From Desulfurococcaceae archaeon (GTDB lineage Archaea > Thermoproteota > Thermoprotei_A > Sulfolobales > NBVN01): a DNA stretch of 35,439 nt. Positions 5,454 through 23,042 of this stretch are shown piece after piece. The notes under the pieces were generated by a model. That model ran no database searches. It saw only the letters and a program-made list of their open reading frames with translations, and had not been told where the DNA came from. The stretch lies in the NCBI GenBank assembly GCA_020832985.1, contig JAJHRE010000008.1, forward strand, positions 1-35,439. Reading direction: 5' to 3'. Both the position numbers and the translations under genes were made by a program. Every line of letters begins with the position of its first letter. Within the stretch, counting starts at the first letter, position 1.

Positions 5454-5473
5454 TCTGAACGTCGTTTCAGAGG

Positions 5474-5854: not shown

Positions 5855-6765
5855 TGCATTTCAAGTCTATACCTAAGCTTAAATACCTTTGATTTTACAG
5901 GTATGACTATAAAAGCAATTATAGCTGAGACTATTACTATGATGGTCTCTAAGGGTCTACTGACTTTATAGTTAATGATTTCTGAGGAAATTGTTAGGTA
6001 GGCAGAACCAACTATTATTAACGATATTATTGATATAAGGACCTTCCTCGAGATTGAGGACTTTACTGGTGAGGTAAATGTATCCACAACCCATACAACT
6101 ACTAACAACCCAGTTATTAAGTTAAGGTCTGGATATGTTAGTAGTTGAGATACTATGAGGAGTATTAGGAGTAGAGTCGGTTTTAAATACGTAGTAACCC
6201 TACTTGAATGTCCTACCCTCTTAGTAGATATGATATAACCTATTAAAGAGATTGTATAACCTATTAACATACCCACAACAACATCAACCTCCGAATGCAT
6301 TCTAAGAACTACTCTAGAATAACTAATTAGTATTGGTATAGCTAACACACAAGCATAAAAAACTACTCTCCGAGTACTTAATGCTAAAGAAAGCCAGAAC
6401 GTAGATGATATCTGGGCATGACCACTAGGTAGTGAAGGTCCCTTACCAATGACTAACATATCAATAACATTCTTAATGACGGTGGGTAAATCATTTAAGT
6501 TTACTACGTAAGTGTTAGGTCTCGGAACACTTAACCAATACTTAAGCAGTATGTTTAAGAACGAACTTATAAGTACTAGACTTAATAGTCTAATACCTAA
6601 ATCTCTATGTATGAATAAGATCATTGATGAGAGCGCTATATATACTAAGTCATCACCTATTATCGAAAGCGTTATCAGTATTGCTATTGTTAGGTCCAAC
6701 ACTTCACACCGTCTAACTACGGAATCTAATGTAATAAATGTTGTTTCATTATAGGGTTTGTTCAT
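5851..6765 (-). CDS. PAP2-family membrane phosphatase
   Basis: A 304-residue membrane protein with the three phosphatidic-acid-phosphatase motifs in order: K-x6-RP (Lys75 to Arg82-Pro83), PSGH (113-116) and SR-x5-H-x3-D (Ser150-Arg151, His157, Asp161). About eight to nine hydrophobic segments are present, with extra ones after the catalytic core. These enzymes dephosphorylate lipid phosphates or polyprenyl pyrophosphates at the membrane face; in archaea polyprenyl carriers and archaeol phosphates are candidate substrates. The ATG at 6765 lies about 20 bases downstream of an AT-rich TATA-like element (6781-6790, minus strand), which suggests a leaderless mRNA. It overlaps the DUF35 gene by four bases at the 3' end. 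Confidence 0.87.
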   Translation of the reverse strand: MNKPYNETTFITLDSVVRRCEVLDLTIAILITLSIIGDDLVYIALSSMILFIHRDLGIRLLSLVLISSFLNILLKYWLSVPRPNTYVVNLNDLPTVIKNVIDMLVIGKGPSLPSGHAQISSTFWLSLALSTRRVVFYACVLAIPILISYSRVVLRMHSEVDVVVGMLIGYTISLIGYIISTKRVGHSSRVTTYLKPTLLLILLIVSQLLTYPDLNLITGLLVVVWVVDTFTSPVKSSISRKVLISIISLIIVGSAYLTISSEIINYKVSRPLETIIVIVSAIIAFIVIPVKSKVFKLRYRLEMH

Positions 6766-6766
6766 G

Positions 6767-6790
6767 TTTAAATACCTTTACTATAAAGTA
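6767..6790. promoter_or_regulatory. Overlapping divergent TATA elements for pheS and the PAP2 gene
   Basis: TTTAAATAC (6767-6775, plus strand) sits about 26 bp before 6797 and fits pheS. ACTTTATAG read on the minus strand (about 6779-6788) fits a leaderless start of the PAP2 gene near 6765. The two promoters interleave in under 50 bp, so transcription from one could hinder the other. Positions are read by eye. Confidence 0.45.
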
Positions 6791-6808
6791 GGTTTTATGG
6801 AGGGTAGC

Positions 6809-8362
6809 ATGTATAGAGTTAGTAGCAGGCAATATACCATAATTAAAACACTCAATGATTACTTAGTTGGTGGGTTTAGATACGTTGATGTTAGAGAAGT
6901 AGCTAAAGCTCTAAATACTAACGTTAGTGATCTTATGAGGGACCTCGCCGAATTAGAGAGTAAGGGGCTTATTAAGACTCAAAGACTTAGTAAGTATTTA
7001 GTGAGGTTAAGTGATTTAGGTATTAAGTACTTAAACGAGGGTTTACCTGAATTTAAATTACTTCAAGTTTTAGTGAATCTTAATTCTAGAGGTATTAAGA
7101 GTTTAAGAGTTGATGAGCTTAAAGAGGTCTCTAAGTTAAGTGATGATGAATTCTCAGCTTCATTAGGTATACTGAGGAGGTTTAACGTGATCTCAATAAG
7201 TAGGAATGTAGTTGATGTTTCATTAGATAATGCTAAGATTCAGGAGTTTAGTAAGTACTTAGAAGATGTTAAGGAGCTACTGAGTAGGTTAAATGAAGGG
7301 CTTATAGTGGGGTCATTAGATAGTAAGCTACAGAGTATTAAGAGGAGGGGTTTCATAGTTGTTGATGAGATTAAGGAATTAAGTGTAGGTCTTACTGACG
7401 TAGCCTTAGAAGCTATTAGGAATAACTTAATAATTGCTAAGGATATAGTCACAGTACTAACCCCGGAGTTAATATCTAGTGGTGGTTGGAAGGATGTAGA
7501 GTTTAAGGAGTTTGATTTAAGTATTGAGGTACCGATGGTATACCCATCTAGGAAGCATCCATACATAGAGTTCTTAAACTATGTAAGAGATATTGTCGTT
7601 TCTATGGGGTTTGAGGAGGTAAAGGGTCCTCACCTAGAGCTAGAGTTCTGGAACTTCGACGTCCTCTACGTCCCACAATACCACCCAGCGAGAACTATAA
7701 CAGATGTTTACTTCGTTAAGGAAGGAGTTCAAGTAAGGTATGATGTAGATGAGGAGGTAATGAGCATCGTTAGGAGGGTTCATGAGGATGGAGGCCCTGC
7801 TAATTCATTAGGTTGGGGGTATAGATGGGATCCTAAGAAAGCATTGAAGTTAATACTGAGGACCCATACAACATCAGTTTCAATGCGTACTATATATGAG
7901 AGAGGTGAGGGTGAGTATAGATGTTTCTCATTAGATAGGGTTTTCAGGCCAGACACTCCAGACCCTACGCACTTGATGGAGTTCCACCAACTTGAGGGTA
8001 TAATAGTTGGTAAGGAAGTCTCCTTCAAACACCTCCTAGGGTTCTTTAAAGAATTTGCGAGACGTCTAGGTTTAGGGGATGTAATATTTAAACCAGCGTA
8101 CTTCCCATTCACAGAACCTAGTGTTGAGGGCTACGTAAAGCATCCTAAGTTAGGATGGATTGAGGTTTTCCCAGGCGGTATGTTCAGACCTGAGGTTTTA
8201 AGACCGCTTAGAGTAGTTAACTGTAATGTTGCGGCTTGGGGTATAGGTATTGATAGGATAGCTATGATGGTGTTAGGTATAGATGATATTAGGGAGTTAT
8301 ACAGTAATTCATTAGATGTGATTAAGGGTATGAAGATTCCTAAGACGTTACTAAAGGGGTGA
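6809..8362 (+). CDS. pheS: Phenylalanyl-tRNA synthetase alpha subunit
   Basis: The catalytic subunit of the (alpha-beta)2 enzyme that charges tRNA-Phe. The N-terminal third (about 1-170) holds winged-helix DNA/RNA-binding-like repeats typical of archaeal/eukaryotic PheRS alpha. The class II core follows, with motif 2 region RTHTTSVSMRTIY and FSLDRVFRPDTPDPTHLMEF, and motif 3 GIGIDRIAMMVLGI near the C-terminus. About 517 residues, a normal length. I choose ATG 6809 because GGAGG ends five bases before it; the frame is open from TTG 6758 and ATG 6797 is an alternative that would suit a leaderless transcript. pheT follows 4 bp after the stop if the ATA start is right. Confidence 0.95.
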   Translation: MYRVSSRQYTIIKTLNDYLVGGFRYVDVREVAKALNTNVSDLMRDLAELESKGLIKTQRLSKYLVRLSDLGIKYLNEGLPEFKLLQVLVNLNSRGIKSLRVDELKEVSKLSDDEFSASLGILRRFNVISISRNVVDVSLDNAKIQEFSKYLEDVKELLSRLNEGLIVGSLDSKLQSIKRRGFIVVDEIKELSVGLTDVALEAIRNNLIIAKDIVTVLTPELISSGGWKDVEFKEFDLSIEVPMVYPSRKHPYIEFLNYVRDIVVSMGFEEVKGPHLELEFWNFDVLYVPQYHPARTITDVYFVKEGVQVRYDVDEEVMSIVRRVHEDGGPANSLGWGYRWDPKKALKLILRTHTTSVSMRTIYERGEGEYRCFSLDRVFRPDTPDPTHLMEFHQLEGIIVGKEVSFKHLLGFFKEFARRLGLGDVIFKPAYFPFTEPSVEGYVKHPKLGWIEVFPGGMFRPEVLRPLRVVNCNVAAWGIGIDRIAMMVLGIDDIRELYSNSLDVIKGMKIPKTLLKG

Positions 8363-8366
8363 GACT

Positions 8367-10010
8367 ATACCGACCATTGAGGTTAAGTTATGGGATATTG
8401 AAAGGATAGTGAAGAGTCGTATAAGGTTTGATGAGTTGGGAGAATATCTTACTAAGCTTAAGTGTGAGGTTGAGGAAGTTCGTGGTGATACGTTAGTTTA
8501 TGAGGCATCACATGATAGGCCAGACTTATTCTCAGCGGAGGGTTTAGGAAGAGCTTTAAGGAGTTTAAAAGGAGTTGATAATGGATTTAAAGAAGTTGTG
8601 GTTAGGGATTCAGATGTTGAGGTAATAGCTTCGAATAAGCCGTCCTACAGACCATACGTCTTAGGAGCTATAGTTAAGGGTTTATCCTTAGATGAGGAGT
8701 CAATAACACAGATAATTCAACTACAAGAGAAGTTACACCTCAGCTACTGTGGTGATAGGGCTTTAGTAGCTATAGGACTCCATGATTATAGTAAGATAAC
8801 ACCTCCAATATATTATAAGGCTGTTAGTGAGTATAGGTTTAAGCCTTTAGGTTATGATGAGGAGATGAGTATTAGGGAAATACTCAGTAAAGTGGATAAG
8901 GGGGTTAGGTATAGGCATTTAGTTAGAGATGGTGAGTACCCCCTACTAGTAGATTCTAAGGGGATGGTACTATCTATGCCCCCAATAATTAACGGTGATT
9001 ACACTAGAATAACTACTAATACTACTCAATTCTTCATAGACATAACTGGGACAGACTTAGAGTTGATGAGTAGGGTCTTGAACGTAGTTATAGGTGCGTT
9101 GTTAGAGAGAGGTGATGAAGTCACAGTATTTAAGGTTAGAGTCTTAGATGGGGATAGGATTATATGGAGTCCTAGATATGATGTAAAGGTATTTAAAGTA
9201 GGTTTAGATGATGTTAAATCGTTATTAGGTATCGACTTAAGTGTTGAAGAAGTTATTAAGTGTTTAAATAGTATGGGGTTTAATGTTAAGGTATTAGACC
9301 TAAGGTCTTTAGAGGTTAGGGTACCTCCCTATAGGATCGATGTAATGCATGTTGTCGATATTATTGAGGATATAGCTATTGCTTACGGTTATGACAGGTT
9401 AACACCGACGCTCCTACCACCTACGCATAACGGTAGTATACATCCGATAGAGGGGTTCTCGAGAATTGTTAGGGATTTAATGATAGGTTTAGGTTTTAAC
9501 GAAGTGGTGAACTTCATGTTAGTAGATTCCGAATACTTAAGTGATTTAAGTATAGGTAATTACGTCATATTGGAGAATCCTAGGATGAAGGCTTATTCAG
9601 CAGTTAGGAATTCATTAATACCTTCAATACTTCAAGCAGTTAGGATTAATTCCTTAACCTCTAAAAACATTAAGTTGTTTGAGGTTGGAGATGTTGTTGA
9701 GTTAAGTAACAACGGCTTCAGAAGTTCTAGGAAGTTAGCTGTAGCAATATCAACCGCTGAGACAACATTAACTGACGTGTTAGTGGTTCTTAAGTCATTA
9801 ATGAATATGTTAGGGATTAACTACTCATTAAGTCGTTGTAGTTCTAACTTAATGATTAGTGGTAGGTGTGGTGAGGTAGTAGTTAGAGGTGCTGTTATCG
9901 GAATTGTCGGTGAGGTACACCCAAGGATACTTAATTACTTAGGGATTACATTACCTGTAGCCTTATTAGAGATAAATCTATCATCCATACTACAGATAAT
10001 TTCTGGTTAA
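8367..10010 (+). CDS. pheT: Phenylalanyl-tRNA synthetase beta subunit with apparent ATA start
   Basis: The beta subunit of PheRS, carrying the B3/B4 editing module and an inactive catalytic-like domain. Near the start it reads CEVEEV...ASHDRPDLFSAEGLGRALR, the archaeal PheT signature; the B5 and core-like parts end near residue 545. The first ATG, GTG or TTG in frame is GTG 8409, but the conserved N-terminus continues upstream as PTIEVKLWDIERI, directly preceded by ATA at 8367. A GGTGA motif (8358-8362), overlapping the pheS stop, ends four bases before this ATA, the spacing seen at clear starts in this window. The coordinates therefore assume ATA initiation; the conservative start is 8409. 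Confidence 0.93.
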   Translation: MPTIEVKLWDIERIVKSRIRFDELGEYLTKLKCEVEEVRGDTLVYEASHDRPDLFSAEGLGRALRSLKGVDNGFKEVVVRDSDVEVIASNKPSYRPYVLGAIVKGLSLDEESITQIIQLQEKLHLSYCGDRALVAIGLHDYSKITPPIYYKAVSEYRFKPLGYDEEMSIREILSKVDKGVRYRHLVRDGEYPLLVDSKGMVLSMPPIINGDYTRITTNTTQFFIDITGTDLELMSRVLNVVIGALLERGDEVTVFKVRVLDGDRIIWSPRYDVKVFKVGLDDVKSLLGIDLSVEEVIKCLNSMGFNVKVLDLRSLEVRVPPYRIDVMHVVDIIEDIAIAYGYDRLTPTLLPPTHNGSIHPIEGFSRIVRDLMIGLGFNEVVNFMLVDSEYLSDLSIGNYVILENPRMKAYSAVRNSLIPSILQAVRINSLTSKNIKLFEVGDVVELSNNGFRSSRKLAVAISTAETTLTDVLVVLKSLMNMLGINYSLSRCSSNLMISGRCGEVVVRGAVIGIVGEVHPRILNYLGITLPVALLEINLSSILQIISG

Positions 10011-20818: not shown

Positions 20819-22078
20819 TCAGTAAATACTAATTGACTTCATCAAGATCTTCTCTATAATGTCTTTAGAAACCTCTACAGGGCTTTGTGCAAGTAACCTA
20901 CGCATTAGTAAGGTCTTCTCAGCTATGAGAGGTATTTGAGACTCAGAAATCCCTAACTCGTTAAGACCGTTAGGTACTTTAAGACTTATCAATAGTTCCC
21001 TAATAACTTCGATAGACTTACTAATTTGTCTCTTAATATTTACTTCAACTTCAGAGCCTAACAGTATTGATATCTTTGCTACTTTCTCAGGGAGTACGTT
21101 AGCTATTACTTCAAGTAATGCAGGTGCTGTAATCACGGCACATATACCGTGTGGTACATCTACAATACCTCCTAATACTAATGATATTGCGTGTGATATA
21201 TGAGTTCCTGCGTTCCCTAAAGCTACTCCAGCCATGTAGGAAGCTAGTGACATACCGTACCTAGCCTCTAGGTCTTGACCGTTAAAGTACGCTCTCTTAA
21301 GGTACTTCCCTATAAGCTCTATAGCTTTCTCAGCGAAGGTATCAGTTACTGGGTTAGACCCTACATAAACAGGTCTTAAATCACTCCTACTAGGTTTGAA
21401 CCTCATGTTGTAGGGTTTTGCTGTATATGCTTCAATAGCATGCATTAAAGCGTCTAAACCTGTAGATGCTGTAGTGTTTTGAGGCATGGTTACTGTGTTG
21501 ATAGGGTCTACTACAGCGTAGGTTGGTAATAGGTACTCATTTGATATACCGAATTTAATACTATCCTTACTAACTTTAAATACTGCAGTCGGTGTTGTCT
21601 CACTACCACTACCGGAGGTTGTTGGTACAGCAATTAACGGCTTTAAAGCTCCTGGGATAGGTTTACCAGCACCTACTGGTTGTGGTAAGTAGTCTAGGAT
21701 ATTAGGTGTTGGGTATGATGTGTAGAGGTTTACTAACTTAGCAGTATCTATAGCACTCCCACCACCAACCGCTACTATAGCATCAAACTTCAACTCATTA
21801 GCAAATCTAATACCATCATCAATAGATTCTAAAGATGGTTCAGGTTCAACACCACTCCACACATGTACCTCAATTCCTTCAGATTCGATAACCTTAACTA
21901 AACCCTTAGCTATCCCAACTTTATCATAAACATTCTTACCACATATAAGTAATACCCTTGATATGTTCCTCCGTCTTAAGTCCTGACCTAATTCTTGAGT
22001 TGCTCCAATACCAATCTTAGCTGGGGTTAACTTAACAGTAAATACCGGGTCTAGATTTAATTCCGGAACAGGTAGTAT
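20819..22078 (-). CDS. Iron-containing alcohol dehydrogenase, hydroxyacid-oxoacid transhydrogenase-like, apparent ATA start
   Basis: About 419 residues. NAD-binding AVGGGSAIDTAKL, then PTTSGSGSET, and metal ligands in GLDALMHAIEAY, GTHISHAISLVLGG and VPHGICAV are intact. The insert PYNMRFKPSRSDLRPVYVGS followed by NPVTD matches the hydroxyacid-oxoacid transhydrogenase branch of the family. The first ATG, GTG or TTG in frame is GTG 21862, but a clean family N-terminus continues upstream (LPVPELNLDPVF, then KIGIGATQELGQDLRRRNIS and VLLICGKNVYDKVGIAKGL) to a TGA at 22084-22082, followed by TTA ATA. A GGTGGTC (22092-22086) and a TATA box (22118-22125) lie just upstream. ATA 22078 is the best start; a one-base frameshift from GTG 22085 is the alternative. 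Confidence 0.88.
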   Translation of the reverse strand: MLPVPELNLDPVFTVKLTPAKIGIGATQELGQDLRRRNISRVLLICGKNVYDKVGIAKGLVKVIESEGIEVHVWSGVEPEPSLESIDDGIRFANELKFDAIVAVGGGSAIDTAKLVNLYTSYPTPNILDYLPQPVGAGKPIPGALKPLIAVPTTSGSGSETTPTAVFKVSKDSIKFGISNEYLLPTYAVVDPINTVTMPQNTTASTGLDALMHAIEAYTAKPYNMRFKPSRSDLRPVYVGSNPVTDTFAEKAIELIGKYLKRAYFNGQDLEARYGMSLASYMAGVALGNAGTHISHAISLVLGGIVDVPHGICAVITAPALLEVIANVLPEKVAKISILLGSEVEVNIKRQISKSIEVIRELLISLKVPNGLNELGISESQIPLIAEKTLLMRRLLAQSPVEVSKDIIEKILMKSISIY

Positions 22079-22117
22079 TAATCACGACCACCAGATCCGA
22101 ATAAAGTAAAGTTAGGG

Positions 22118-22300: not shown

Positions 22301-22331
22301 GAATTGTAACATCTTTTAATTAGGTGGTCTT

Positions 22332-23042
22332 ATAGGTGTTGATGAGATTAATAAGAAGTTAGATGATATGATTAAGCAAGCTAATGAGGAGTTTAGTAGG
22401 ATTCGTGAGGAATTGAGTAAGATATCTGAGATGGTTAAGAGAAAGGAGGATATATGGTTGATTAAGGATAGGGTTGCTAATGTTAGAAAAGATATTAGAG
22501 GTTTTATACGTAGGTTTAGAGAGCAGATAAGGCTTATTAGGAGGGAGGTCAGGTCGCTACCTAGAGATATTAGGGACGTTGTTGCTAGTAGGATTGAGGA
22601 TTTTGAGGATGAGATCAGTGATATGATTGATGAGTTACTGACTAGTTTGGATGATATTAGGGAAGGTATTAGGGGTGTTATTGAAGGTAGGGAGGTTCTG
22701 AGTTACTCATTAATACCTAACATATTTAAAATATCTACTATAGCTTTAGATAGTGTTTCTAGAGTGTTAAGTGATGTGTTACAAGATATTCGTTCTGAGG
22801 TTGAGAAAGGTATTGCTAAGGGAGCTTCAAGTGTTGTTTCTGTGAGGATTTTAGATGATGACTTAAAACTTATTGATATGTTAGTTAACGTTGGTGTGTT
22901 TAGGAGTAGGTCTGAAGCTGTAACATTCTTTGTACGTAGGGGTATTAAAGCTAGTGAGGAACTCTTAAATAAGATTAAGGAGAAGATTGATGAGTTATCT
23001 AAGTTAAGGATGGAGTTAGAGAAGGAATTTAAGAAGTCTTAA
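22332..23042 (+). CDS. Coiled-coil protein with C-terminal ribbon-helix-helix-like segment, apparent ATA start
   Basis: About 236 residues, not a family I recognise by name. Roughly residues 1-110 are charged, heptad-like helix (IREELSKISEMVKRKEDIW, then IRGFIRRFREQIRLIRREVR and DFEDEISDMIDELLTSLDDI), followed by a more hydrophobic stretch and then VVSVRILDDDLKLIDMLVNV followed by GVFRSRSEAVTFFVRRGIKA. The last part looks like a CopG-type strand-helix-helix, with SRSEAV at the inter-helix turn. A final helix (EELLNKIKEKIDELSKL) closes the protein. The first ATG is 22368, but GGTGG (22323-22327) ends four bases before in-frame ATA 22332, and the TATA box also fits 22332. A DNA-binding, possibly chromosome-organising protein is plausible. 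Confidence 0.7.
   Translation: MGVDEINKKLDDMIKQANEEFSRIREELSKISEMVKRKEDIWLIKDRVANVRKDIRGFIRRFREQIRLIRREVRSLPRDIRDVVASRIEDFEDEISDMIDELLTSLDDIREGIRGVIEGREVLSYSLIPNIFKISTIALDSVSRVLSDVLQDIRSEVEKGIAKGASSVVSVRILDDDLKLIDMLVNVGVFRSRSEAVTFFVRRGIKASEELLNKIKEKIDELSKLRMELEKEFKKS

Follow-up and report, generated by a model that had tools for sequence, protein, structure and literature searches.

The gene for the beta subunit of phenylalanyl-tRNA synthetase (pheT) of a Desulfurococcaceae archaeon is very likely translated from an ATA codon at position 8367 of the window, the whole stretch of 35,439 nucleotides analysed here, by initiation driven by a Shine-Dalgarno (SD) sequence. Judged from sequence comparisons, it would be one case of a recurrent habit of near-cognate initiation in the archaeon's own assembly (G000) and in a sister genus (G005). 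After the stop codon TAA, the pheT frame reads AGG GGT GAG ACT ATA(8367) CCG ACC ATT GAG GTT AAG TTA TGG GAT ATT GAA AGG ATA GTG(8409), and no ATG, GTG or TTG occurs in it before GTG 8409. A preliminary description of this DNA had stated this absence and had placed the expected N-terminus of the beta subunit directly after ATA 8367; both statements hold, the former as far back as TAA 8352-8354. The predicted protein scores 472.8 bits over its full length against the archaeal equivalog model TIGR00471 (pheT_arch, cut-off 282.65), with residues 1-540 on profile positions 2-550/551, and the neighbouring pheS gene ends at 8362. PheRS beta from P. horikoshii (2cxi) aligns from its residue 2 with the protein directly after ATA. 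As the matches to model and structure both begin at position 2, ATA takes the place of residue 1. The motif GGTGA, which had likewise been described as lying four bases before ATA, contains the pheS stop codon TGA (8360-8362). A spacing of 4 is the commonest one at conserved ATG starts of the G000/G005 pair (68 of 327 sites), so that the arrangement of GGTGA and ATA appears to be more than chance. The pheT gene thus displays both features of a near-cognate start, namely the absence of a canonical codon before the conserved N-terminus and an ATA preceded by GGTGA at spacing 4.

Features of the pheS-pheT junction and further near-cognate start sites in the window
Feature	Position	Strand	Evidence or remarks
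pheS (PheRS alpha)	6758..8362	+	NF003210 547.5 bits, TIGR00468 321.9 bits; ORF; start coordinate provisional
TAA, upstream in-frame stop of the pheT frame	8352..8354	+	sequence read
GGTGA, Shine-Dalgarno-like	8358..8362	+	overlaps pheS stop; ends 4 nt before ATA
ATA, putative pheT start codon	8367..8369	+	ATG/GTG/TTG at homologous codon in 55/56 relatives; HMM residue 1
pheT (PheRS beta), 547 codons including ATA, stop TAA 10008-10010	8367..10010	+	TIGR00471 1.3e-141; Pfam B3/4, B5, tRNA_synthFbeta
GTG, first canonical in-frame start of pheT; use would cut 14 residues including conserved PTIEVKLWDIERI	8409..8411	+	
ATA, putative second ATA start, AGGTGGtcttATA, spacing 4, ORF 22320-23039	22332..22334	+	ATG at aligned codon in G005 orthologue
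TTA-ATA, putative start of Fe-dependent alcohol dehydrogenase-like gene, complement(20822..22081)	22076..22081	-	
ACG, putative start of ChsH2-type zinc ribbon/OB protein	5459..5461	+	directly behind full AGGAGGTGA, spacing 5; ATG at aligned codon in G005

The start of pheT was readable in 56 relatives, half of them (28) from the same family and the other 28 from other families of the order. At the codon corresponding to ATA 8367, 55 of these have ATG, GTG or TTG, which is the outcome for the orthologue alignment that the preliminary description had proposed as a check; the exception (G039) has ACG at this codon and a GTG two codons upstream. From the NTG codons at the aligned position it is evident that the position of the pheT start is well fixed and that the codon alone is unusual. 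Among the genomes compared, ATA at this place was seen in one metagenome-assembled genome (MAG) only, which is 82% complete. Collections of genome contigs and viral contigs were searched for another assembly of this species, and none was found.

A screen for genes lacking canonical starts covered 812 kb of G000 and 1.10 Mb of G005. Open reading frames were taken from stop to stop and paired by reciprocal best hits, and antisense shadow frames were removed by overlap filtering, which yielded 598 orthologue pairs with a median identity of 69%. A start was counted as missing when at least 14 aligned residues at an identity of at least 45% preceded the first canonical codon in a match of at least 100 bits; the requirement for length and identity drops many flagged genes that merely have conserved leaders before a normal start. 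Under this rule, 19/535 conserved genes in G000 and 21/549 in G005 had no canonical start. As a few flagged genes are unexplained or artefacts, we estimate that about 2-3% of conserved genes have a putative near-cognate start, most often AUA and as a rule with a GGTGR motif at suitable spacing. In the genes without canonical start, in-frame codons located 4-7 nt after a motif of the GGTG/GGAGG type were tested, and ATA was found at 10 of 36 such positions (1.65 expected, p=3.4e-6; p=2e-6 when compared with SD-like sites inside genes). ATA, ATT, ATC, CTG and ACG taken together accounted for 16 positions, with 3.2 expected (p=2e-8). AAG and AGG, which are also one change away from ATG, showed no enrichment, which is what one would expect if the pattern reflects decoding and not error. 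Six of the ATA starts have exactly the form GGTGR-N4-ATA. AUA therefore looks like a regular minor start signal in this group rather than an isolated case. The preliminary description, confined to pheT, had missed this recurrence, which comprises three further genes in the window (22332, 22081-22076 on the minus strand and 5459) and about ten ATA-start genes in the two genomes. Its proposal of AUA initiation in an essential gene is supported at the sequence level by the start position in orthologues, the SD motif with its spacing and the enrichment of ATA in the two genomes.

Exchanges between ATA and ATG were observed in both directions. The start of a HerA-like ATPase gene reads GGTGAgttcctATA in G000 vs GGTGAgttcttATG in G005, and the L084 gene for an unknown protein has AGGAGGGTGAgaacATA where its orthologue has ATG. 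In the reverse direction, L101j|32311 has ATA in G005 (AGGTGGtaccATA) and ATG in G000 (GGTGGtgttATG), and L113j|71062 also has ATA in G005 vs ATG in G000. Other sites are common to both genera: L085j|112798 and L110j|27223 share GGTGGttac-ATA (GGTGGttacATA), and L085j|6465 and L110j|12831 share GGTGG-N4-ATT. The Rio1 kinase gene, located directly behind the gene for aIF1A, has a putative ATA start (GGTGGttctgaATA). Putative CTG starts were noted for L115j|29394 (CTG in G005, TTG in G000) and for L196j|69840. Within the window, the next canonical codon after ACG 5459 of the ChsH2-type gene is ATG 5474. For the Fe-dependent alcohol dehydrogenase-like gene, TTA-ATA, GGTGGTC and TTAATACTACC are conserved in G000, G004, G005 and G013, which represent three genera; the first canonical codon in G000 is codon 74, G013 has an in-frame ATG upstream, and either TTA or ATA may begin the protein.

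Several other loci were recorded on the way. An apparent CTG start is kept in L207|6666 (G000) and L156j|57367 (G005), where the first canonical codon comes only after codon 60 of the frame. In the porG-like genes L090j|34740 (G000) and L107j|62668 (G005), which begin (I)EIRWHGRGGQGVW, ATT stands directly behind a stop with GGTGG 9 nt upstream. The genes for release factor aRF1 (L089:1753-2853 in G000 and L109j|30063 in G005) have no canonical start before the conserved sequence in either genus; both have TTT at SD spacing 6 (GGTGAgtaggaTTT, GGTGAgatgtaTTT), and the upstream codons are not conserved. In two genomes of another family, the aRF1 homology (G035:C1:807513-808598 and G045:C1:1195569-1196639) crosses an in-frame TGA, and the real start could lie downstream of it. 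The homocitrate/isopropylmalate synthase-like genes L087j|23229 (G000) and L113j|13557 (G005) lack both an SD motif and a canonical start within their first 80-100 codons, and may be leaderless with a near-cognate start. Two genes with an intact counterpart in G005 are broken up into several frames in G000 (L093:11921-13161 and L072:6251-7318); one of them matches L103j|21841 and one is permease-like, and they are either pseudogenes or assembly errors.

Three of the ATA starts (HerA-like, Rio1 and L084) overlap the upstream stop in an ATAG arrangement (distance -4). ATA follows the upstream stop by 4 nt in the case of pheT, behind the pheS stop, and by 10 nt in the case of L101j|32311; the other ATA starts stand free. 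When the G of an ATGA junction is replaced by A, ATG becomes ATA and the stop is preserved (TGA to TAA), which is a possible origin of some ATA starts. This suggests that part of them may have arisen by G-to-A changes in ATGA start/stop overlaps (ATGA to ATAG).

As a control, short loci from other genera of the family and from other families were analysed, which provided 228 testable genes. Eight of these (8/228) were flagged, and all were judged to be rRNA or tRNA neighbourhoods, overlapping frames or conserved leaders, leaving, in our reading, 0 genuine missing starts. The difference from the two-genome screen (Fisher p=0.0009) suggests that near-cognate starts may be specific to the lineage, the control being smaller and less sensitive, with few locus types and more distant homologues.

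An error of base calling or consensus, or a minor strain in the metagenome assembly, might have placed the A at 8369 where the true codon is ATG. ATA at pheT occurs in this MAG alone, NTG stands at or near this codon in the readable relatives, and a single G-to-A change would suffice. However, at a random error rate of about 1e-5 per base, far fewer than one damaged start is estimated for about 600 genes, random hits on ATG would also have produced AAG and AGG, neither of which is enriched at SD-spaced positions, and ATA at SD spacing recurs in many independent genes of two genomes, some of them at shared positions. Because some ATA starts are common to both genera, sequencing error is excluded as the general cause; for pheT itself an assembly error is unlikely, and it has no power to explain the ATA pattern. 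It is less likely again that translation begins elsewhere in the neighbourhood. ATT 8376 is near-cognate as well, and some other genes of the lineage seem to start with ATT, but this codon lies 13 nt from GGTGA, outside the preferred 4-7, and in relatives its position is that of a normal residue within the protein, two or three places past their start; its use, or that of an out-of-frame canonical codon combined with frameshifting, is very improbable. Slightly less credit still is given to a start at GTG 8409 and the loss of the 14 N-terminal residues. Although this is the first canonical codon in the frame, the upstream PTIEVKLWDIERI is conserved (12/18 aligned residues identical to G005), the residues before GTG are part of both the PheT family model, from its position 2, and the P. 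horikoshii domain of known structure, and no readable relative starts PheT at this position.

The least probable explanation, and one to which we give almost no weight, is that AUA is decoded by a dedicated initiator tRNA bearing UAU as its anticodon. The 5' half of an initiator tRNA is indeed present at two places in G000, but the anticodon is CAU at both of them, as it is in G002, G004, G005, G007 and G013, with CTCATA as the sequence in all cases; an altered anticodon was therefore rejected. The initiator tRNA of G000 (one copy read) has the expected A1 start, introns and the anticodon CAU. The two places (G000:C47:5854-5921 and G000:C92:2709-2776) represent either a second gene or overlapping contig ends, and the initiator tRNA genes of the family (L213-L217) are interrupted by several introns, located on either side of the anticodon and in the T-arm, and were missed by ARAGORN. 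The factors aIF1, aIF1A and KsgA/Dim1 influence the choice of the start codon (PMC6237735, PMC7897474), and aIF1 is reported to favour the rejection of non-canonical starts (PMC6237735). All three are present in G000 and G005, the aIF1 sequence of G000 being ordinary, and relaxed initiation through the loss of one of them was rejected. With the CAU initiator tRNA and these factors in place, tolerance of AUA is not due to an obvious loss; a modification of C34 or a change elsewhere in the initiation complex may be its source.

For translation of pheT from AUA 8367, we envisage that GGTGA at 8358-8362 would place the ribosome on the AUA four nucleotides downstream and that the ordinary CAU initiator tRNA would pair with AU and tolerate C-A at the third position, so that the first residue of PheT is presumably methionine. 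Given the overlap of GGTGA with the pheS stop, ribosomes ending pheS are probably able to re-initiate at pheT, which would keep the alpha and beta subunits balanced. On a wider scale, we consider it somewhat likely that in an uncultured Desulfurococcales-type clade AUA serves as a regular minor start codon, with AUU, AUC, CUG and ACG in the same role more rarely. This would concern about 2-3% of the conserved genes, among them essential ones, and the CAU initiator tRNA would be unchanged, so that a changed property of the initiation complex or of C34 modification would have to make it permissive, some of these starts having come from ATGA to ATAG changes. If this is true, the lineage offers a natural setting in which to ask what determines the stringency of start-codon choice in archaea, and several natural pairs of ATG and ATA orthologues are ready for testing it. 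As standard gene finders work with ATG, GTG and TTG, they would truncate or mis-start 2-3% of conserved genes in such genomes.

A partial search of the literature brought up no description of archaea in which AUA recurs as a start codon. In animal mitochondria, AUA specifies methionine through a change of the code, and mitochondrial initiation at AUA uses the same start codon as proposed for pheT. Unlike in mitochondria, ATA is a common internal codon here (4.6%) and a CAU tRNA resembling tRNA-Ile2 is present. Among bacterial genes, infC starts with AUU. The bacterial gene sigR has a GTC start that is repressed by IF3 (PMC5472188). The pheT gene resembles sigR and infC in that an otherwise ordinary gene begins with a weak codon, whereas those are single regulatory cases and the present putative starts are distributed over many unrelated genes of one lineage, including that of an aminoacyl-tRNA synthetase. 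In rpoS of E. coli O104:H4, a natural mutation of the start from ATG to ATA lowers RpoS (PMC12864459); this is the same base change as here, but not a start kept across genera. For archaea, the accessible text of a review names only AUG, GUG and UUG as start codons (PMC7531240). Measured against the canonical SD-dependent initiation outlined there, the SD of the GGTGA type, the short spacing, the CAU initiator tRNA and the presence of aIF1 and aIF1A in G000 are all alike, and the difference lies in AUA as the start codon of pheT.
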